DNA of 25,483 nt from positions 1-25,483 of the IMG/VR virus record IMGVR_UViG_3300046468_001813; one strand, given 5' to 3'. The notes below the pieces were generated by a model, which was not told the origin of the DNA, did not search any database, and worked only from the letters and a program-made list of their open reading frames with translations. Below are positions 1,425 through 25,465 of the stretch, one piece after another (the first letter of the stretch is position 1; each line of letters starts with the position of its first letter). The DNA is from a virus. The translations under genes were made by a program, and so were the position numbers.

Positions 1425-1939
1425 TGGTCATTGTCTTTCTTAAATTGTTTGAAGAACCTAGAAGCTCCACCACTATCTAACTCTTGAACTGGGCAACCCT
1501 CCACGCAAGCCCAATCAGATATAGTTTCTTTCCCATCTTTATCTGCATACCCTGCATACCCTGCTATACCCACAGGGTCAAAGTCACCATATGCTACACG
1601 CTTAATCTTGGTTTTATTATCTAAGATAGCAGTTCCCGATTTAACTTTCTTAGTTCCTATTAATTCACAACCCTCTTTATGGGTCAGAATAAAGTTAGCT
1701 GGCCATCTACCCTTTTCTTTATACATCTGTATATCAGAGCCAACTTGAGCAACATGACCAGACCAACCACTTTCCTTGTAGGAGGCTGTTTGTTGTCTTT
1801 GTCTTGCTTCAAAGTTGACATTTTCTTTCTCTTCAAAAGAAACCCTAGTTGCATCTATATTGATAGCTCCACACCCATGTTTAAGGGTGTTCTCAGCTAC
1901 TGTCCCATCTAGGGGCTTTCTAAGTAATGTGATGATCAC
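1421..1939 (-). CDS. Target-recognition-like subunit of split methyltransferase (copy 2, 172 aa)
   Basis: Second recognition-like ORF, upstream of the catalytic ORF. It shares the N-terminus (RKPLDGTVAENTLKHGCGA), the central GRWPANFIL and the C-terminal GGASRFFKQFKK with copy 1. The remaining sequence differs and is longer, with a GYAGYAD stretch and several cysteines. It starts with GTG inside a GTGA overlap with the chaperonin stop and ends in an ATGA overlap with the catalytic ORF. I infer an alternative specificity subunit for the same catalytic partner. It might instead be a decayed duplicate, but it is fully open and its conserved motifs are intact. Confidence 0.65.
   Translation of the reverse strand: MIITLLRKPLDGTVAENTLKHGCGAINIDATRVSFEEKENVNFEARQRQQTASYKESGWSGHVAQVGSDIQMYKEKGRWPANFILTHKEGCELIGTKKVKSGTAILDNKTKIKRVAYGDFDPVGIAGYAGYADKDGKETISDWACVEGCPVQELDSGGASRFFKQFKKDNDQ
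1871..1939 (-). repeat. Direct repeat, copy 2 (5' end of recognition-subunit ORF)
   Basis: Matches 790-858 at 67 of 69 positions. Homologous recombination between the two copies would loop out the catalytic gene, while exchange with other genomes could swap only the variable centre. Confidence 0.9.
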
Positions 1940-3315
1940 TTCTTACTCCTTACTATATAACCCACAGACCCTAAAGTTGTGGCTATTGATATGGATTTGT
2001 CTAATAACTCTATTAGTCTACCAACAGGGAAGGGTTCATAGAGTTCTTTCATATCCCATACGCTGGAGTCATTCTCAGCCTTGCCTAAGTTATGACATAC
2101 GATTTTAAAAGGTGCTTTCAACGCTCTGTCTAGGTAGTCGTTTCCAGTCTTGATGTTATAGAGAGTGGGGATCGCTCCTTTGACATAACCATTTGCCTTT
2201 GCGTCCATCATAGAAATCAAGGCTTTCTCGGCAAGAACCCTTCTCCACCTAGCTTCGGCTTCGGTTGCCCCCCCTACCCTTAAACGAACGAGCGTTCCGT
2301 TAAGGGCATTAGCTCTTTTGCGTAGTAAATCTTGTGTATGAGGGTGAGGACAAGTCTCTGCTTCTCTAAGTAGTTCATCTACTCGGTCTGCTGTTTTATC
2401 TACATGGTCATCATAAGGGTCTGTAATCATTTCTGTGTAGTTAAGGACGGAGTTAATAGCTGAACCATAGAAATCTGGCACAAACTTCTCGTACTTCTGA
2501 TCAACAACAGTAGCTCCTGTAAACGAGGCAAAGTCATCTAACCATCCTTTACCCCAAATCACTCTAGGGGCATCACAAGCGTACACTTCAAGTGTACCCT
2601 TATGATTGTTCATCTTGATTGCTTGTAGGGCTTTCCCCCCGACCATAGGAGCAATGATGACTAGCGGTCTACCCTCGAATGAACCCATGAGTTCCATAGC
2701 GTTGAGTACATGGTCTATTTCAAATACAGGACGGCTAAACAAAGCGAACATTGGACCTTTAAGATATGCTTCTTTATCGTGGTGTACCTTTAAAGAAGCA
2801 TGGAAGGACTCTGTTTCGACTACCTCGCACCCATTACCCTCCCATTTTTCAAGAGAAACATGAGAAGATAAAGACCCTGCGAGGTAAATTGCTTCTGAGA
2901 TTTTATCTATGGACTCCTCATTAAGCTCACTTTGGAGTCCTATTTCTTTTAGGATCTCTTGGTTGGAGTCATATCTCGGCACAGCATCTACAGCGATATT
3001 GACTGCTCTTTTAACCCCCTCTGTACTCTTAGGGTGGACTTCACCGTAATGACGATGAAAAGACCTCAATAGAGAAATAGTAATAAACGCACCGAGTTTA
3101 CATCCGTCACCAGATTTACACAGTTCTAATAAAGAGGTCTGAATGACTCTTGCTTCTAAAGGGGGGTGGTAAGCATTGATAATGGACTTAGCAGATAGAT
3201 TATTCCAAATCTTGTTGTTGCGAGAGAGTAGGACTGTTCCCCCATTGCTCGCATGACTCAAAACTAAAAGTGATGATAGTTCGTTTATTGTAGGTATAAA
3301 TAGAGATAACGACAT
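1936..3315 (-). CDS. Divergent GroEL-like (group I) chaperonin, 459 aa
   Basis: The apical-domain signature is clear: RPLVIIAPMVGGKAL, then GTLEVYACDAPRVIWGKGWL and DDFASFTGATVV correspond to GroEL PLLIIAEDVEGEAL, GTLKVAAVKAPGFGDRRKAM and EDIAILTGG.VI. Further on, RVDELLREAE..., LNGTLVRLRVGGATEAE and the C-terminal LDRALKAPFKIV follow GroEL order. At 459 residues it is about 90 shorter than GroEL. GroEL's GDGTTT becomes GDGCKL. The GroEL Asp398 position in EDALHAT reads EKALIS, and the ITKDG loop with Asp52 is not recognisable. ATP hydrolysis is therefore doubtful. It is the first gene of the methyltransferase operon. The start has only a weak ribosome binding site (GTGAG). Confidence 0.8.
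   Translation of the reverse strand: MSLSLFIPTINELSSLLVLSHASNGGTVLLSRNNKIWNNLSAKSIINAYHPPLEARVIQTSLLELCKSGDGCKLGAFITISLLRSFHRHYGEVHPKSTEGVKRAVNIAVDAVPRYDSNQEILKEIGLQSELNEESIDKISEAIYLAGSLSSHVSLEKWEGNGCEVVETESFHASLKVHHDKEAYLKGPMFALFSRPVFEIDHVLNAMELMGSFEGRPLVIIAPMVGGKALQAIKMNNHKGTLEVYACDAPRVIWGKGWLDDFASFTGATVVDQKYEKFVPDFYGSAINSVLNYTEMITDPYDDHVDKTADRVDELLREAETCPHPHTQDLLRKRANALNGTLVRLRVGGATEAEARWRRVLAEKALISMMDAKANGYVKGAIPTLYNIKTGNDYLDRALKAPFKIVCHNLGKAENDSSVWDMKELYEPFPVGRLIELLDKSISIATTLGSVGYIVRSKK
3278..3290 (+). promoter_or_regulatory. Phage promoter-like motif for the endolysin operon
   Basis: AGTTCGTTTATTG matches the core AGTTYRTTTATR found upstream of other genes here and lies 54 nt before the amidase start. 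It falls inside the chaperonin coding region on the other strand. A T4-late-like TATAAATA (3295-3302) lies just downstream and is an alternative. Confidence 0.45.
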
Positions 3316-5624: not shown

Positions 5625-6209
5625 TTACCAACGAGGTTCTTTTCTACGAAAGTTCCCACGAGGTTGATTTCTATTATCATAGTGGGGATTATAGTGAGGA
5701 TTATAGTGTGGGTTATAGTGTGGGTTATAGTGTGGGGGCGGAGGCTGATTGTAATGCGGTTGGTTGTAATGGTGAGGACGCTTCTCTCGATACACATCTT
5801 TATCCCACCTCTTGCGTTGTTTTTGGATCACATGAGCTGGGACATTGTGTTCACACCTCTCAGTGAGCTGACGATCTGATAACCCTCCGTCATAGAGGTT
5901 GATGACCTGTACGAAATAGTCATTCTTATTCGCCATTTCCATGTAAGGGTCACACTCCCACTTTCGAGTGAAAGTGTTATGGACGACAATAATCTGATAG
6001 TCATCCCCCATAGCTTCAAGGCACTCTTTTTGACACCAAGAGTGAGCCTCTTTCAACGCTTCATGGTTAAAGTTATAAACACCATTGTCATCAACGAAGA
6101 AATCGTCAGCCGACACCATGATCCGATCTTCCAAATCTCCACAAATTGTCTCTGCTAGACTTGTTTTTCCCGACCCACTTAACCCTCGTACCAAAATCAG
6201 TTGTTTCAC
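5625..6209 (-). CDS. P-loop kinase-like protein with His-Tyr-Asn-Pro repeat tail (194 aa)
   Basis: A Walker A motif at residues 9-16 (GLSGSGKT), MVSADDFF near residue 31 and VVHNTFTRKWE near residue 75 match the AAA_33 / N4BP2-like nucleic-acid kinase family, whose polynucleotide 5'-kinase domain usually spans about 140 residues. The domain ends near residue 145. After it comes a tail rich in His, Tyr, Asn and Pro with repeated PHYN units and a basic end (RGNFRRKEPRW). Translation starts at GTG after GGAGATACA. Likely role: phosphorylation of nucleic-acid ends during repair, with the tail perhaps binding metal or RNA. The substrate is not certain. Confidence 0.8.
   Translation of the reverse strand: MKQLILVRGLSGSGKTSLAETICGDLEDRIMVSADDFFVDDNGVYNFNHEALKEAHSWCQKECLEAMGDDYQIIVVHNTFTRKWECDPYMEMANKNDYFVQVINLYDGGLSDRQLTERCEHNVPAHVIQKQRKRWDKDVYREKRPHHYNQPHYNQPPPPHYNPHYNPHYNPHYNPHYDNRNQPRGNFRRKEPRW
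5676..5735. repeat. Five 12-bp tandem units encoding the HYNP tail
   Basis: Five consecutive 12-bp units close to (a/g)ttatagtgtgg on the plus strand encode four-residue repeats on the minus strand. The two units at 5712-5735 are identical and the outer ones have drifted. The length is a multiple of three, so gain or loss of units keeps the frame. Confidence 0.85.
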
Positions 6210-7127: not shown

Positions 7128-8057
7128 TTACCCGACCTCACGCATACAGACTTGCTCATCTGTTTCGTCTTGGATCTCGGTTTGGGTCATAAGCTCCATG
7201 ATGTCCTCAAGACTTACAACACCATCTGTTCCACCAAAGTCATCGACCATGACAGCAAGGTGGGTCTTGCTTGTAGTGAACTGTTTGAACATTTCCTCAC
7301 AGGTGATGTTCGATTCAACCTTGAGGACAGTACGAGTAAGTTCTTGGACAGTCGGGTTCTCATCCTTAGCGAGTGATTGGAAAGCGTCTTTAAGGAGCAT
7401 GATACCTTGTACATCATCTCGGCTCTTACCAAGTACGACAAGTCGTGAGTGCTGACTCTCAAAGAGAGAGGGCTTGATGTCCTCAAGACGCTCATCAGAT
7501 CGGACAGTGGTCATGTTGACTCGTGGAGTACCAACCTGCTCAACAGTCGTGAGTGAAAGGTTGTATGTACCCTCGTAGATCTTCTCAACGATTGCACTAG
7601 GCTCTGAACTCTTAAAACGAGCTGTGAGCTTTCCTATCATCCAGTTGATAGGAGTGAGTACCCATGACAGTAAAACCATCACAGGAGCGAATATACGACC
7701 CACAAAGAGTGGGTTATTCGTCCCATACGCTTTCGGGATGATCTCACTACAGATGATGATAGTGAAAGTGAGGATACCCATCACCAAACCAACATACTCA
7801 CTACCAAGCCACAGACCTGCATTTGTACCGACCACACCACTACCCATGATGTTGGCGATGTTATTACAGATCGTATTGGTGCTGATGAACGACTCTTTAT
7901 CATTCATCACCTTGTTCAAGGCACAAGATCCGAAGACCTTGTTCTTACAGGCAGACTTAACCTCTGCCTTAGATAGAGAGGCAACAGCCATTTCCCACGC
8001 ACTGTGGATAGCTGAAGCGATGATAGTGATGAAAAAAGCGGATAATGTGCTGATCAT
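7128..8057 (-). CDS. CNNM/CorC-type membrane protein: DUF21 plus CBS pair (309 aa)
   Basis: The N-terminal about 140 residues contain three or four hydrophobic segments (LSAFFITIIASAIHSAW, GLVMGILTFTIIIC, VMVLLSWVLTPINWMIG) and the DUF21 signature EIIPKAYG. The C-terminal part is a CBS-pair region with LAVMVDDFGGTDGVVSLED, matching the VDEFGGT.G.VTLEDILE hallmark of CorC/CNNM proteins, linked to magnesium transport or efflux. The usual C-terminal CorC_HlyC domain is missing. An in-frame GTG at 8138 exists, but I choose ATG 8057: it has GGAGAACCAAAC before it and the promoter-like motif lies between the two. A transport protein of this family in a phage is unusual. Confidence 0.88.
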   Translation of the reverse strand: MISTLSAFFITIIASAIHSAWEMAVASLSKAEVKSACKNKVFGSCALNKVMNDKESFISTNTICNNIANIMGSGVVGTNAGLWLGSEYVGLVMGILTFTIIICSEIIPKAYGTNNPLFVGRIFAPVMVLLSWVLTPINWMIGKLTARFKSSEPSAIVEKIYEGTYNLSLTTVEQVGTPRVNMTTVRSDERLEDIKPSLFESQHSRLVVLGKSRDDVQGIMLLKDAFQSLAKDENPTVQELTRTVLKVESNITCEEMFKQFTTSKTHLAVMVDDFGGTDGVVSLEDIMELMTQTEIQDETDEQVCMREVG

Positions 8058-8115
8058 GTTTGGTTCTCCGTTTGGGAGTGAGTTGATGAGGTCAATGTCA
8101 ACCTCGACATAATGC

Positions 8116-8135
8116 TCTAAATAAGGGGTTACAAA
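8116..8135 (-). promoter_or_regulatory. Promoter-like element for the CNNM gene
   Basis: On the minus strand it reads TTTGTAACCCCTTATTTAGA, ending 58 nt before the chosen start. It is the mirror image of the element at 8183-8203, so two divergent promoters appear to face away from each other. Confidence 0.5.
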
Positions 8136-8182
8136 CACCCTCTGCCAAAACTCAAACCCTTATAAAGTAAGATAAAGTTGGA

Positions 8183-8203
8183 TTTGTAACCCCTTGTTTA
8201 TGC
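8183..8203 (+). promoter_or_regulatory. Promoter-like element for the WGR-Sir2 operon
   Basis: tttgtaaccccttgttta followed by tgc matches the minus-oriented element at 8119-8135 as an inverted repeat in 16 of 17 bases. It ends 53 nt before the ATG at 8257. Confidence 0.5.
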
Positions 8204-8256
8204 CTTTATGTGAGGAACTACCACTCACCAACCCTCACTCACTAAAGGAGAACAAA

Positions 8257-8553
8257 ATGAATCACGATCTTAAAGAGAAGCTAGCAGAGGCTTTTGAGTC
8301 TGCTATCCTCTACGCATATGGAGATTGCACCACCACAGATGGGGTGGGGTCATGGGTCGGAGAATCATACTACTACGGAGGGTTCATCTCTGAGGGTGAA
8401 GATCGCCTTAACCCCAGAGGTAAATCTGAACTAAAGAAAGACACAGACTTAAAAGAGATGGGGATCTCAATCAGTCAGATTGAGACAAATAAAGACGAGG
8501 AGTACCTACGAGGTGAAATGGACATTCGTATTTACTTCACCTTAAACGCTTAA
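8257..8553 (+). CDS. Hypothetical acidic protein (98 aa), first gene of the sirtuin operon
   Basis: I do not recognise it. The start is chosen at ATG 8257 because AAAGGAGAACAAA precedes it; an upstream in-frame ATG (8194) would sit inside the promoter-like element. The protein is acidic, with a Gly/Tyr-rich stretch (GVGSWVGESYYYGGF) and a beta-prone C-terminus (GEMDIRIYFTLNA). The next gene follows after 14 nt, so it belongs to the same transcript as the WGR and Sir2 genes. Confidence 0.75.
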   Translation: MNHDLKEKLAEAFESAILYAYGDCTTTDGVGSWVGESYYYGGFISEGEDRLNPRGKSELKKDTDLKEMGISISQIETNKDEEYLRGEMDIRIYFTLNA

Positions 8554-8567
8554 ACAGGAGAACCAAC

Positions 8568-8813
8568 ATGGCTATAGACACTATCACACAATGTAATCTA
8601 TCACCCACTTTTCGACTCCGTTTAGAGCATAAGGATGGACACTACAAGTTTTGGGAGGCTACAGGTCGCCCAAATGGAGATGTCCTCATCCGTTATGGTC
8701 GTATCGGAGATTGGGGTCAGTCAATCATGAAGAACAGGGCTTACTTCGAGAAGAAAGCCCCACAAAAACTAGCCAAAGGCTACTTCGTAAAGGAGGTGAA
8801 CTTATCATGCTAA
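8568..8813 (+). CDS. Stand-alone WGR-domain protein (81 aa)
   Basis: The core KFWEATGRPNGDVLIRYGRI, then GDWGQ, then AYFEKKAPQKLAKGY fits the WGR domain, named for its Trp-Gly-Arg signature (here YGRIG) and known from the DNA-break-sensing region of PARP1-3 and from small bacterial proteins. The whole protein is one domain. It has a strong ribosome binding site (AGGAGAACCAAC) and its last codons overlap the start of the sirtuin gene. I infer nucleic-acid binding or an adaptor role. A diverged copy follows the sirtuin at 9601-9864. Confidence 0.8.
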   Translation: MAIDTITQCNLSPTFRLRLEHKDGHYKFWEATGRPNGDVLIRYGRIGDWGQSIMKNRAYFEKKAPQKLAKGYFVKEVNLSC

Positions 8814-9595
8814 ACTCAATCAAAACATCAGATAACATCTTAATCGTAACAGGTGCTGGAATAAGCACCTCATCGGGAATCCAAGCATGGAGAACAGGAG
8901 AGGATGCTGTGTGGGCTAATGATGTCCTTGAGAAAGGCACACAGGCATACTTCAATCGAAACCCAGCGAAGGCATGGGAATGGTATTTAGAAAAGTTCAA
9001 AGGTGTCTTTGCCCTTGAGCCTAATGACGCTCATAAAGCTCTCGTGGAGCTTGAAACATGGTGTGTGTCAGAAGGTAAAACCTTTGACATCATCACACAA
9101 AATGTGGATCACCTACACAACAAGGCTGGTTCACAAAATGTCATCGAGATACATGGAACGACTAACGCTGTGCGTTGCCCTAATCATGGGTGCGATCATG
9201 GAGAGCCGAGAGGTTCAATCCCGATGAGCGAGGTATGGGCAGACTATCAGAAGTTTGAACAGACCAAAGACCCGAACGATCTACCTATGTGTCCTAAATG
9301 CGATGTCCCACTGAGGACACACGCACTGTGGTTCGATGAGTTTTATGGTTCTCATGAGGACTATCGCTTAGATGATGCTATGGAAGCTATCGAGGAAGCC
9401 GATATGGTGATCTTTATCGGTACTAGCTTCTCTGTAGGGATCACAGCAATGGTGGTTCAAGCGGGTAAGCAAATGAGGAAGCCGATGTATATCATCGACC
9501 CTAGTCCTACCCAAGAGTCCAAGAGCTTCAAATACATCACTGAGAAGGCAGAGGAGTATCTTCCTAACTTAGTGCAACAACTGACTAAGAGGTAA
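8807..9595 (+). CDS. Sir2-family NAD-dependent protein deacylase (262 aa)
   Basis: All core sirtuin motifs are present: GAGIST at 16-21, TQNVDHLH at 97-104, catalytic His116 in IHGTT, a zinc site of two pairs (Cys124/Cys129 and Cys162/Cys165), ALWFDE near 173-178 and IGTSFSVG near 206. The family uses NAD+ to remove acyl groups from lysine, or in some members to transfer ADP-ribose. The PDFR segment of classic sirtuins reads QAWR. I choose ATG 8807 because AAAGGAGGTGAACTTATC precedes it; the longer in-frame ORF from 8651 only shadows the WGR gene. It sits between two WGR paralogues, suggesting that the three proteins act together, for example on NAD-dependent marks at DNA. Confidence 0.92.
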   Translation: MLNSIKTSDNILIVTGAGISTSSGIQAWRTGEDAVWANDVLEKGTQAYFNRNPAKAWEWYLEKFKGVFALEPNDAHKALVELETWCVSEGKTFDIITQNVDHLHNKAGSQNVIEIHGTTNAVRCPNHGCDHGEPRGSIPMSEVWADYQKFEQTKDPNDLPMCPKCDVPLRTHALWFDEFYGSHEDYRLDDAMEAIEEADMVIFIGTSFSVGITAMVVQAGKQMRKPMYIIDPSPTQESKSFKYITEKAEEYLPNLVQQLTKR

Positions 9596-9600
9596 GAGGT

Positions 9601-9864
9601 ATGGCTATTGACGCTGTAACACAATGTAATCTATCACCCTCATTCACTCTTCGCCTTGAGCATAATGACTTCACGAAGATGAGGATTATGGTTTGGGAAG
9701 CCAAGACCCTAGAGGAAGGTAAGGTTCTCATACGCTCTGGTAGTCTTGGCACTACCTATCTGAAAGAGGTCATCAAAGACAGAGCGTACTTTGAGAGAAA
9801 TGCTCCCCAAAAGATCGCTAAGGGTTATGTCGTAAAGAGGCTAGTCATAGGATCTGACGGATGA
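9601..9864 (+). CDS. Second WGR-like protein (87 aa), diverged paralogue
   Basis: It shares the N-terminus (MAID..TQCNLSP.F.LRLEH) and C-terminal half (DRAYFERNAPQKIAKGYVVK) with the WGR protein at 8568-8813. Short identical DNA stretches remain near the start. The signature itself has changed: YGRIGDWGQ in the first copy is SGSLGTTYLKE here, so the Arg and Trp are lost. It starts 5 nt after the sirtuin stop with GAGG very close to the ATG. Its 3' end overlaps the convergent kinase gene by 20 bases. I infer a partner subunit with altered or lost DNA contact. Confidence 0.75.
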   Translation: MAIDAVTQCNLSPSFTLRLEHNDFTKMRIMVWEAKTLEEGKVLIRSGSLGTTYLKEVIKDRAYFERNAPQKIAKGYVVKRLVIGSDG

Positions 9865-10414
9865 CATCTAGCCTCTGACCCTCATCCATGTCGTACCAAT
9901 CGAGCTTGATGTATTTAGTGTCTTTAGGGAGTCTGTCTGGTATTTGCATGACTTGAGCCTGTAGCTTATGCAGGTAAGACTCCTCGATACCCGACTCAAA
10001 TCCTCTCCCTCGTTTAGAAATCCTTTCCATAGCTTGTTCCACGCTGACATGGAGATGAATACAGACATCGACATGAGGGATATAAGGTGTGAGCATATTA
10101 AAGTGCTTCATGTACGAACTGTATTCATCTTCGGTAAGGACTCCATCATCTTTTAAGATGTTAGCAAAGCAAGAGTCTCCAAAAATTGAGCGATCAAGCA
10201 AGGTGTTTTCTGGAAGATGTTTTGAGAACCTGTCATAGAGGAAGTGCATTTGAAGCGTATACGCCCATCGGCTTGGGTCGTCCGAATAAAACTTTTCAAG
10301 GAAAGGGTTATCATCAACCGACTCATACATAGGGGTAAGGTTGAAGTATTTGCTGGCTTCTTTTGTGAATGTGGACTTACCGACACCGATAAGACCCTCT
10401 ACAATGATTCTCAT
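9845..10414 (-). CDS. Deoxynucleoside kinase, dCK/dGK-like (189 aa)
   Basis: It has a P-loop at residues 7-15 (GLIGVGKST), a DRS motif at 74-76 (LLDRSIFGD) and RISKRGRGFE near 135, corresponding to the substrate-site Arg and the RxRxxE lid of the dCK/dGK/insect-dNK family. Length is close to that of bacterial deoxyadenosine/deoxyguanosine kinases. It phosphorylates deoxynucleosides with ATP in salvage, supplying dNTP precursors for phage replication. The exact base preference cannot be read from the sequence. It starts after AAAAGGAGGTTCATTT, a strong ribosome binding site. Confidence 0.88.
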   Translation of the reverse strand: MRIIVEGLIGVGKSTFTKEASKYFNLTPMYESVDDNPFLEKFYSDDPSRWAYTLQMHFLYDRFSKHLPENTLLDRSIFGDSCFANILKDDGVLTEDEYSSYMKHFNMLTPYIPHVDVCIHLHVSVEQAMERISKRGRGFESGIEESYLHKLQAQVMQIPDRLPKDTKYIKLDWYDMDEGQRLDVIRQIL

Positions 10415-10494: not shown

Positions 10495-10842
10495 ATGAGA
10501 AGATCAGCTACTGAAATCCTAAGAAATCTTGAACTAAGGATCGCTCGGCTCGAAAAACAATCTGTCAAAGGATGGGAGTTGAGGAGAGGAGACTCAGTAA
10601 TGCTTATTACTCAATCGGAATGGGACAATGGTGGGCCGAGGATGCCCGCAACTGTGGAGGGAAAAATTAGTGAGATGAAAATAGAGATTTCATTAGGTAT
10701 GAGACTCGTGGTGGTTGACGCAAAAGACCTCATTAAAGCTACAGGAAACATACATGAAGACCTAAAAAATTGGGAAGAAGGTGAAAAGGCTCTGAGGTCT
10801 AGGAAACCTAAAAAACAAAAAGGATACTGGTTGGGAGATTGA
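10495..10842 (+). CDS. MRRSA-tagged protein 1 (115 aa)
   Basis: The first 22 residues (MRRSATEILRNLELRIARLE, then KQ) closely match the N-termini of the proteins at 22265-22615 and 23293-23661. The rest is unrelated: a beta-prone middle (GDSVMLITQSEW, MRLVVVDAKDL) and a Lys/Arg-rich tail (RSRKPKKQKGYW). The tag is a short amphipathic, coiled-coil-like helix. The ribosome binding site is inside a 5-bp hairpin, TAAGG-AGAAA-CCTTA (10481-10495). Function unknown; the shared tag suggests a common destination or partner. Confidence 0.75.
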   Translation: MRRSATEILRNLELRIARLEKQSVKGWELRRGDSVMLITQSEWDNGGPRMPATVEGKISEMKIEISLGMRLVVVDAKDLIKATGNIHEDLKNWEEGEKALRSRKPKKQKGYWLGD

Positions 10843-18355: not shown

Positions 18356-18607
18356 TTAGTCCTCTATGATGTAGCCTTGTCTCCTTAGTTTTATTGTTAG
18401 GTGAGCGAGTTTGATAGGATCGTTAGAACTGACCACAATCTTGTGGTCATCAATGATGCTTACATCCCAATCTTCTTTTTGGATGTTGCGTATAAACTTC
18501 TCTCCGAAAGGATACTCTTGAGGGTGGATCGTGATGTCATACTTCTGAGTCATTACTTGAGTGACCCATCTCTTTACGATGTCTTTGGGTAAGATCTTAT
18601 CCGTCAT
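18356..18607 (-). CDS. Hypothetical protein (83 aa)
   Basis: I do not recognise it. Its start overlaps the stop of the sigma-like gene (ATGA), so both are co-translated. The sequence has alternating beta and helix (DWDVSIIDDHKIVVSSND, LAHLTIKLRRQGYIIED), the pattern of a small ferredoxin-like fold. It is probably a minor partner in the transcription-factor operon, judged only by position. Confidence 0.7.
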   Translation of the reverse strand: MTDKILPKDIVKRWVTQVMTQKYDITIHPQEYPFGEKFIRNIQKEDWDVSIIDDHKIVVSSNDPIKLAHLTIKLRRQGYIIED

Positions 18608-19170
18608 AAGATCACTCTCTTCCGATCTACACTTTCAGGAAGGACTCTAAGGAGAGTGATGTTTTCACTTATCACTTTGAAAGTGTTGTAGACCTCATTT
18701 AATTTAGGTGATTGTTCCATCGCTTTTAAACACTTCAAGTACCTGTATCTGATCTTTCCTTGTGTGTCTCCTAAAATACGAGCCACATGGCTTTGGCTAG
18801 AGTAGATGTATAAAAGAACTAATACTTCAATGTCTTTATTGTCGATAAAGAATCCAGAGAGCAAATCTCTTAGCTCGGCTTCCTCATAAATAGTTATTTG
18901 TGCGTAGACCCTCAACCTATCTAAACCTCGATTAACCCTGTAATGGACATTTGGCTGAGTATACCCAAAGATTTTTCCAAGATATGCTTGGCTGAGTCCA
19001 TGCAATAGGTGTAGTTCAACCATATCAGCTTCTACAGGAGAAACTTTGCTCATATGTTCTAAAATTGAATGTATCTTTTCAATCTGATCATCCGAGACAT
19101 ACTTTGGAGTTGGACAAGTATGAAGTCCTTGTTCGTCCGAAAAAATCTGTTCCATTAACTTCTGATCCAT
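18604..19170 (-). CDS. Sigma-70 region-4-like transcription factor with two HTH units (188 aa)
   Basis: The segment at about residues 46-88 (MVELHLLHGLSQAYLGKIFG, then YTQPNVHYRVNRGLDRLR) has the spacing of sigma region 4, which contacts the -35 element and the beta-flap. A second, weaker copy lies near 117-152 (VLVLLYIYSSQSHVARILGD, then TQGKIRYRYLKCLKAM). No region 2 (-10 recognition) is visible, so this is not a full sigma factor. It may instead be a phage co-activator or divergent sigma. Genes for a NusG-like factor and a clamp loader lie upstream. It is a candidate reader of the promoter-like motif repeated across this window. Confidence 0.65.
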   Translation of the reverse strand: MDQKLMEQIFSDEQGLHTCPTPKYVSDDQIEKIHSILEHMSKVSPVEADMVELHLLHGLSQAYLGKIFGYTQPNVHYRVNRGLDRLRVYAQITIYEEAELRDLLSGFFIDNKDIEVLVLLYIYSSQSHVARILGDTQGKIRYRYLKCLKAMEQSPKLNEVYNTFKVISENITLLRVLPESVDRKRVIL

Positions 19171-22264: not shown

Positions 22265-22615
22265 TTATCTCACACTCTTAAATTCTCTTTGTGCTTCTCT
22301 TAGACTCAAGATTTCTTTTTCCACTAAAACTTGCCTGTTATATCGCTGTGATACAATCATATATTCGGCATCTACCCCTGCGTCTTCACAACCGACTTCA
22401 ATGAGGATATACAACCCCTTGTCAACCCCCCCCTTTACACTTATTATCTTGTTGTAGCACCACTCACTATCCATACCCCACACATCCTCAATGTAATCAT
22501 TGATCTCATCTTTAATATTTTGTGCAAGTATGGCTTTTTGAGTACCCGATGACTTTTCGAGTCGTGCAATACGACCCTCAAGACCCCTAATTACTTCGCT
22601 GACTGTTCTTCTCAT
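22265..22615 (-). CDS. MRRSA-tagged protein 2 (116 aa)
   Basis: It begins MRRTVSEVIRGLEGRIARLE, the shared tag, then a body unlike the other two: a helix (AILAQNIKDEINDYIED) and a beta-rich part (GLYILIEVGCEDAGVDAEYM). I place the start at ATG 22615 after GGAGAACTATT; the ORF is open to 22645. Its leader resembles that of tagged protein 3 (ATAAGTGATCTC in both). The preceding 128-bp gap (22137-22264) holds nothing I can identify. Confidence 0.72.
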   Translation of the reverse strand: MRRTVSEVIRGLEGRIARLEKSSGTQKAILAQNIKDEINDYIEDVWGMDSEWCYNKIISVKGGVDKGLYILIEVGCEDAGVDAEYMIVSQRYNRQVLVEKEILSLREAQREFKSVR

Positions 22616-22655
22616 AATAGTTCTCCATTTGGTTAATGAGATCACTTATGAGGAG

Positions 22656-23292: not shown

Positions 23293-23661
23293 CTACAAAC
23301 TTCTTAAAACCTTCTTGGAAGCCTTTAGGAAGTCGGACTCAACAGGGTCATTCCCACCACGACCAATGTTTACTGCACCAACAGTTGTTGGTGTACCGTA
23401 CTCGTCTTCTTGAGTAAAGACGAAAGTGGTCTTTGGTCCATCATAGGTGATGTAAATCTCATCATCTCCATTTGACCACATAATCGCACCAGAGAATGAC
23501 TCCTCAAGCTCAAAGCCAAGTAGTTTAGTACCCTCAAGATCACGAACAGCTTGCATAGCTGGATGGTTGTAGTTTCTTGGTTCATCCCAACTTGATTGCT
23601 TCTCAAGTCGTGCGATTCTCATCTCAAGGTTTCTAATAGTTTCTGATGCTGATCTTCTCAT
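23293..23661 (-). CDS. MRRSA-tagged protein 3 (122 aa)
   Basis: It begins MRRSASETIRNLEMRIARLE, the shared tag, 17 of 22 residues like protein 1. The body is unrelated to the others: beta-rich (LLGFELEESFSGAIMW; DEIYITYDGPKTTFVFTQ) with a Gly-rich segment (VGAVNIGRGGNDP) and a C-terminal helix (FLKASKKVLRSL). The ribosome binding site is GGAGAAATATT. It has its own promoter-like motif and lies after a terminator, so it is a separate transcription unit. Confidence 0.75.
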   Translation of the reverse strand: MRRSASETIRNLEMRIARLEKQSSWDEPRNYNHPAMQAVRDLEGTKLLGFELEESFSGAIMWSNGDDEIYITYDGPKTTFVFTQEDEYGTPTTVGAVNIGRGGNDPVESDFLKASKKVLRSL

Positions 23662-24586: not shown

Positions 24587-25465
24587 TTAACGCTGTACTG
24601 TAAGACGAGCAAGACCACGAGGGTTATAAGCACCAATACCCAAATTCTCAAATACTGAGAAGCCGATTGTACGAGCTTTTGGATCGTCAGCAGAGAGAAC
24701 GGTCAACTCAGTACGAACAGGAATACGACCGAACATCTCTGGCTCACAGCAGACATAAACAGTTCCAACAGGAACAAGTCGGCTAGTGATGATCTGAGCA
24801 CCCCAAAGGGTAGCCTGTAGACCAGTTTTGAGGAGTGCCGCTTGGCTCTCGATGTCGAGAATGTCTCTACCGAACTTACGGATGTCAGCGTAATCACGAG
24901 CGTTCATGAATACACGAGCAACACGAAGGTCGTGACGCTCAATGAGGCTGTATGCGTCAGCAAGAACAGCACCATTAAGAGGAGCGATAACAGGGAGATC
25001 AGCGTTAGTCTGACCTGCAACGCTATCAAATCCGTTTGCCGCAACTGCATCAAGAATAGCGAATACTCGCTCGTCTTCTGCCGCTTGGATCTGAGCACGA
25101 GCTAAATCTTGTGCCCTCTCGATAAGGTCAAACCTACGCTCCTTGATTTGAGTCAAAGGAATCTCTGGGTTTGAAGCAATCTCGAAAAGAGGGAAGATAA
25201 CCCTACGAGGCTTAGTGATTGCAAGGATGTTCTCACCCTCTTCACCAACTACGAAAGCAGTCACATCGGGATCTTTGTCATAAATAGGCAAAGCTCCGTC
25301 TGGTAGTTGCTCTACAAGGAAAGTCTTACGACCAACGCTTGTATAGTCTCTGCGTAAACGAAGGGGCTGAGTCATTGAAGCGGCTAGCTTCGCACGACCC
25401 TGTGGAGTCTTAATGTAGTCAGAAATGATCTTCTGTTTTACAGCGTTGTCTACTGAATTACTCAT
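24587..25465 (-). CDS. Major capsid protein, HK97-like fold (292 aa)
   Basis: The sequence reads as an HK97-type capsid protein: an N-terminal helix (AKLAASMTQPLRLRRDYTS), an E-loop-like part (GRKTFLVEQLPDGALPIYDK, AFVVGEEGENILAI), a long helix (FDLIERAQDLARAQIQAAED), the P-domain/A-domain pattern (ADAYSLIERHDLRVARVFMN, ARDYADIRKFG) and a terminal GIGAYNPRGLARL. Codon use is even and the terminator is strong, as expected for an abundant product. It has no visible prohead-protease propeptide. It starts after AAGGAAGAGTGATTTATT. A related structural protein with the same fold is possible but less likely. Confidence 0.78.
   Translation of the reverse strand: MSNSVDNAVKQKIISDYIKTPQGRAKLAASMTQPLRLRRDYTSVGRKTFLVEQLPDGALPIYDKDPDVTAFVVGEEGENILAITKPRRVIFPLFEIASNPEIPLTQIKERRFDLIERAQDLARAQIQAAEDERVFAILDAVAANGFDSVAGQTNADLPVIAPLNGAVLADAYSLIERHDLRVARVFMNARDYADIRKFGRDILDIESQAALLKTGLQATLWGAQIITSRLVPVGTVYVCCEPEMFGRIPVRTELTVLSADDPKARTIGFSVFENLGIGAYNPRGLARLTVQR

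Follow-up and report, generated by a model that had tools for sequence, protein, structure and literature searches.

Does a phage sirtuin whose gene lies between two small WGR-like genes work alone, or with one or both of its neighbours? The question is raised by a locus that a first-pass annotation took for a three-gene WGR–Sir2–WGR system, linked to NAD and possibly to ADP-ribose marks. The genes are designated here WGR1, Sir2 and WGR2 in their order on the DNA, and their coordinates are given in Table 1 with those of the surrounding features.

The phage group and its genomic setting

The 25,483-base window (the whole stretch of DNA analysed) covers part of a jumbo-phage genome, as deduced from its major head protein, which matches the 375-kb contig listed in Table 1, the 485-kb uncultured phage LR745208.1 (89% identity) and Tunturiibacter phage Tunturi_5 (46% identity). 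The closest relatives found are contigs of 23–375 kb, while a 312-kb contig and LR745208.1 are more distant and constitute the two nearest outgroups. The phage group considered below is defined as the six contigs that encode both WGR1 and Sir2, namely the window and five further contigs, all close relatives of one another. Since two of these five do not differ at WGR1/Sir2, five distinct versions are available, including that of the window.

Table 1. Positions of the locus genes, their flanks and other features in the window
Feature	Coordinates	Strand	Basis or remark
CNNM/CorC-like CBS-domain protein, left flank	7128..8138	-	NCBIfam GldE and CorC matches
Accessory ORF, 98 aa	8257..8553	+	Upstream of WGR1; no family match
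WGR1, single-domain WGR protein, 81 aa	8568..8813	+	7-base overlap of its stop with the Sir2 start
ATGCTAA overlap, WGR1 end/Sir2 start	8807..8813	+	Sequence; same register in 6/6 contigs
Sir2, NAD-dependent protein deacylase of CobB/SIRT5 type (predicted), 262 aa	8807..9595	+	Pfam, PHROG, motifs, fold
WGR2, 87 aa, paralogue of WGR1, divergent and not conserved	9601..9864	+	54% identity to WGR1
Deoxynucleoside kinase, right flank	9845..10414	-	Pfam dNK, 130.7 bits
MRRSASEIIRNLEMRIARLERQAS-bearing ORF	10495-10842	+	
MRRSASEIIRNLEMRIARLERQAS-bearing ORF	22265-22645	-	
MRRSASEIIRNLEMRIARLERQAS-bearing ORF	23293-23661	-	
Major head protein	24587-25465		99% identical to its counterpart in a 375-kb IMG/VR contig

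Other features of these genomes deserve mention. A sigma-like protein of the phage's own is encoded at 18604-19170, which makes a scan of positions 8050-10000 for sigma-70-like promoters uninformative: no site was found, and fewer than in shuffles. On the minus strand, a DNA methyltransferase appears split (436-1939), with a 189-aa N6/N4 methylase half (855-1424) between related ORFs of 140 and 172 aa, each overlapping by 4 bases; more copies occur in the 375-kb relative (G004), and swappable halves are possible. The same strand encodes a 459-aa divergent GroEL-like protein (1936-3315; PHROG 5725, E 2e-22), which scores below the cut-off of the NCBIfam GroEL models and has no Pfam match, and a P-loop kinase-like protein (AAA_33; 5625-6209) whose terminal HYNP repeats are retained in the relatives. 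In addition, otherwise unrelated proteins share about 24 residues at their N terminus, MRRSASEIIRNLEMRIARLERQAS. This peptide is found in about 34 ORFs of the 375-kb relative (G004), and the 312-kb outgroup contig (L171) has variants of it; a search of named phages gave no match. The peptide may be a sorting or packaging signal and looks like a strong finding in its own right.

The sirtuin and its WGR neighbours

The first-pass annotation saw in Sir2 a complete-looking sirtuin with its catalytic His and zinc cysteines, and this description holds. The protein matches Pfam SIR2 with 112.5 bits (E 3e-32; curated cut-off 24) and PHROG 2162 (phrog_2162), and the catalytic His116, the four zinc cysteines (Cys124/129/162/165) and the GAGIS, TQN(99)VD(101)HLH and GTS motifs are invariant in all six contigs. 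NCBIfam deacylase models match as well, but under their equivalog cut-offs. The nearest solved sequences in a PDB sequence comparison are Sir2-Af1 and SIRT5, and the predicted structure (pLDDT 89.8) has Sir2-Af1 (TM 0.80-0.82) and SIRT5 as its top folds. Judged by sequence, zinc module and fold, Sir2 is an intact, competent-looking deacylase of the CobB/SIRT5 type. The proposed link to ADP-ribose marks is not borne out, given this deacylase-type character and a Macro domain search of the six contigs that gave no match.

Bacterial relatives, at 39-46% identity, are found in genomes of Acidobacteriota, Myxococcota and Gammaproteobacteria and have the class-III acyl-pocket motif Tyr-x-x-Arg, whereas the phage enzyme has Tyr-x-x-Lys, with Tyr60 retained and Arg replaced by Lys63. 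The class-III motif is thus incomplete, which weakens any claim of desuccinylase activity and is still compatible with deacylation. In other words, the phage Sir2 shares with CobB, Sir2-Af1 and SIRT5 the fold, catalytic His, NAD motifs, four zinc cysteines and acyl-pocket Tyr, but differs from them in its YxxK pocket, its scores below the equivalog cut-offs, its jumbo-phage origin and its overlap with a WGR gene. We infer both the activity and the target of the enzyme, NAD-dependent lysine deacylation following from family knowledge and the intact residues.

The match of WGR1 to Pfam WGR is modest (23.9 bits; cut-off 22), and a Pfam WGR match is found in each of the six orthologues. In a profile comparison against a set made up of the strong WGR domains from these phages and a Klebsiella phage WGR-PARP, WGR1 reaches a probability of 96.9. 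The topology of the predicted model (pLDDT 90.3) is that of a WGR domain, and viral WGR models are matched at TM 0.70, two of them with an rmsd of 1.1-1.2; among the viral matches are WGR proteins of phages and a phage-encoded NAD ADP-ribosyltransferase that has a WGR domain. Searched against PDB folds, the model gave no match at E <= 0.001 and superposed poorly, with no WGR chain among the top 50 listed, and a PDB sequence search with WGR returned a chance match only. On its profile matches and predicted fold, WGR1 is a genuine single-domain WGR protein.

The fold suggests, by analogy, that WGR1 may bind nucleic acid (DNA or RNA). In the WGR domain of PARP1, residue Trp589 stacks against the DNA 5′ end (PMC6135609). 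WGR1 retains at this position an aromatic residue followed by Gly-Arg (Tyr43-Gly44-Arg45), and Y-G-R is found in all orthologues; the replacement of Trp by Tyr counts against the putative binding of DNA. The WGR fold and Gly-Arg signature are shared with MolR-like WGR proteins, PARP WGR domains and the WGR-PARP of Klebsiella phage 05F01, from all of which WGR1 differs by its Tyr and by being a single domain that lacks the PARP catalytic part. Unlike in WGR-PARPs, the NAD enzyme beside it is a separate sirtuin. The protein of phage 05F01 (L012 3980-5260) is a complete small PARP of 426 aa with WGR, PARP regulatory and PARP catalytic domains. Further WGR proteins are encoded by the phages of the group, namely long proteins of 573-584 aa (L022, L023, L024) with a strong WGR domain (48 bits) and, in the 375-kb relative (G004:281762-282496), a 244-aa WGR-like protein scoring 15.3 bits, under the Pfam cut-off. 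The MRRSASEIIRNLEMRIARLERQAS peptide recurs in both kinds, internally in the long one.

The downstream gene has a different status. That the two WGR-like genes are paralogous, as first annotated, is correct (54% identity, E 4e-30), but only WGR1 is recognizable as a WGR protein: WGR2 has no match to any Pfam family, the WGR model included, and the YGRIG of WGR1 has become SGSLG, so that the Tyr-Gly-Arg signature is lost (Ser-Gly-Ser). Among the six contigs, WGR2 is intact in the window only. The 226-kb relative has nearly identical DNA broken in frame by deletions of 38 and 7 bases, and the gene is absent from the remaining four contigs. The downstream WGR is thus dispensable, and the three-gene system has to be abandoned. 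The WGR2 DNA is almost identical in the window (9601-9864) and the 226-kb relative (L008 5790-6012), while dS in the adjacent Sir2 is about 0.5. As far as the sequences tell, WGR2 is a recent duplicate in the course of being lost, and its near-identity beside a diverged Sir2 is the mark of recent exchange between phages followed by decay. On the other side of the locus, the operon had been started at 8257, a position that takes in the additional 98-aa ORF with an orthologue in the 375-kb relative only; WGR1 itself begins at 8568.

The WGR1–Sir2 pair and its rival explanations

The overlapping start noted by the first-pass annotation is real, the Sir2 ATG at 8807 falling within the last codons of WGR1 and giving an overlap of 7 bases. 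Translational coupling of the two genes through this overlap is likely from its sequence. Gene order and overlap are identical in all six contigs; the deoxynucleoside kinase gene flanks the pair in each of them, and the CorC-like gene is present wherever the contig reaches that far. The small accessory genes between these flanks and the pair vary, and the pair stays. Ratios of dN/dS are low (WGR1, 0.05-0.17; Sir2, 0.06-0.14; dS reaching 1.6), indicating purifying selection and hence that both are functional genes. Neither Sir2 nor any WGR match was found in the 312-kb contig and LR745208.1. Retention of the pair beside changing neighbours, and the joint absence of both genes from the two outgroups, count in favour of a unit. 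The first-pass reading hinged on other genomes keeping the genes together; for WGR1 and Sir2, five further contigs do so. From these comparisons, it is plausible that the pair, and not the trio, is a unit, and from the conserved coupling we infer a physical partnership of the two proteins.

The explanation retained as the best, to which we give an even chance, is that a lysine deacylase is co-translated with a nucleic-acid-binding WGR protein that tethers or regulates it. WGR1 would be made from the same transcript just before Sir2, probably with translational coupling. The substrates of Sir2 would be host or phage proteins whose lysines bear acetyl or acidic acyl groups, and the NAD-dependent removal of these groups would release nicotinamide and O-acyl-ADP-ribose. 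WGR1, whose WGR fold would by analogy bind nucleic acid, would keep Sir2 near DNA, or tune its activity, during infection. A narrower version, in which WGR1, bound to DNA or RNA ends, would activate Sir2 allosterically or position it, would be the sirtuin counterpart of the WGR domain that helps activate PARP1; by this analogy it can be envisaged, but is unlikely.

The main rival is that the two genes are unlinked neighbours, an ordinary host-metabolism sirtuin (with, for example, acetyl-CoA synthetase as target) lying after an independent WGR protein in a compact early region, and this is quite possible, if not what we favour. Sirtuins are common in phages (985 phage records match the CBB Sir2), nearly always without a WGR neighbour, and a host-metabolism role has been proposed for the Vibrio phage Sir2 (PMC5107563). 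The window has at least five other same-strand gene pairs with a 4-base overlap, and since overlapping starts are common in this phage, the WGR1/Sir2 overlap alone proves little. The close kinship of the six contigs also counts against a unit. In the 375-kb relative, moreover, a further two WGR-like proteins, of 573 and 244 aa, are encoded at a great distance from Sir2, so that WGR1 may be one member of a phage-wide set of WGR proteins; that WGR1 is an independent protein is a weighty alternative. Against mere neighbourhood, the register of the pair is the same in each of the six contigs, whereas the other small genes of the locus turn over, and WGR and Sir2 are jointly absent from the outgroups.

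How far the pairing extends bears on the same issue. Conserved Sir2–WGR neighbourhoods are confined to the six contigs of one group. A WGR profile built for this analysis, which also recovered all five WGR1 relatives, found no WGR in the surroundings of 75 other viral Sir2 genes (about 3 kb) and of 31 bacterial Sir2 genes (flanks of up to 5 kb), which implies that Sir2 generally works without WGR. The WGR alignment retrieved no relative from GTDB genomes and the same five contigs only from IMG/VR. When whole records of 25 large Sir2-bearing phages were searched, any WGR was found in three. One of the three is Escherichia phage Ecwhy_1, where the WGR forms the C-terminal part of a 323-aa protein; its gene and Sir2 are about 5 kb apart on one strand, and the cluster includes Nudix and cREC genes. 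In the other two phages, the distance between WGR and Sir2 is tens to hundreds of kilobases. The Ecwhy_1 case provides an independent hint for the pairing, and both of its proteins are listed by Iyer and colleagues without being linked in the part of that work consulted (PMC7824862). The overall picture is suggestive of a link specific to one phage lineage rather than of a widespread neighbourhood.

Could the WGR1–Sir2 pair serve counter-defence, as when a defence protein is deacylated at DNA ends to counter an NAD-linked or DNA-sensing host system? The locus sits among accessory genes that turn over, and NAD-centred counter-systems are known in jumbo phages (PMC7824862), but PADLOC gave no match and searches of the relatives for NAMPT and macrodomains found none, making this role improbable. 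Nor did any PADLOC defence model match for the Sir2 NADase systems (DSR, ThsA, Sir2-HerA, Sir2-APAZ).

An RNA-end repair sirtuin acting like KptA, as proposed for jumbo and V5-like phages and for many phage sirtuins (PMC9503650), is very improbable here. Ecwhy_1 has its Nudix/cREC neighbourhood with a WGR protein nearby, but no Nudix, cREC, 2H or RNA ligase was recognized in the window or among the neighbouring genes of the relatives. The clade also differs. Although the known phage Sir2 genes (phrog_2162; Vibrio phages, GAP32/CBB, 121Q-like) likewise encode single-domain sirtuins, the CBB-type jumbo-phage enzyme has TANVD without zinc cysteines whereas this one has TQNVD with all four. Zinc cysteines are reported absent from the Vibrio phage and KVP40 sirtuins (PMC5107563), again unlike here. 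Furthermore, the closest relatives of this Sir2 are bacterial (40-46%) and not those phage genes, and no RNA-repair neighbours are seen beside it.

Least credible is a toxin module with ADP-ribosyltransferase or NADase activity, in which WGR1 would be the antitoxin or the trigger: the small overlapping gene before an enzyme recalls toxin–antitoxin layouts, and phages of the Annadreamy/Moab type carry Sir2–macrodomain pairs, but here the deacylase zinc module and catalytic His are intact, with neither a macrodomain nor a PADLOC match. These SirTM-like toxin–antitoxin modules of Streptomyces phages Moab and Annadreamy likewise consist of two overlapping or abutting genes, one of them a Sir2; the partner of the present Sir2 is a WGR protein, encoded upstream. 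In Annadreamy, the macrodomain protein directly follows Sir2 (L021 2995-4139; Pfam Macro 19.1 bits, just under cut-off), an arrangement resembling the sirtuin–macro pair of Moab, which has already been described (PMC9503650).

Literature searches on a WGR–sirtuin gene pair found no report, and the WGR1–Sir2 pair conserved in one jumbo-phage group is, in modest terms, a new pairing of known parts. Sirtuins are common in phages, yet in the literature found their targets are only proposed. A deacylase-complete phage sirtuin with a fixed small partner of DNA-binding type would offer a testable route to its target, namely whatever WGR1 binds. If WGR1 does control Sir2, a phage would have a connection between DNA-end sensing and the deacylation of proteins that lies outside the PARP family.
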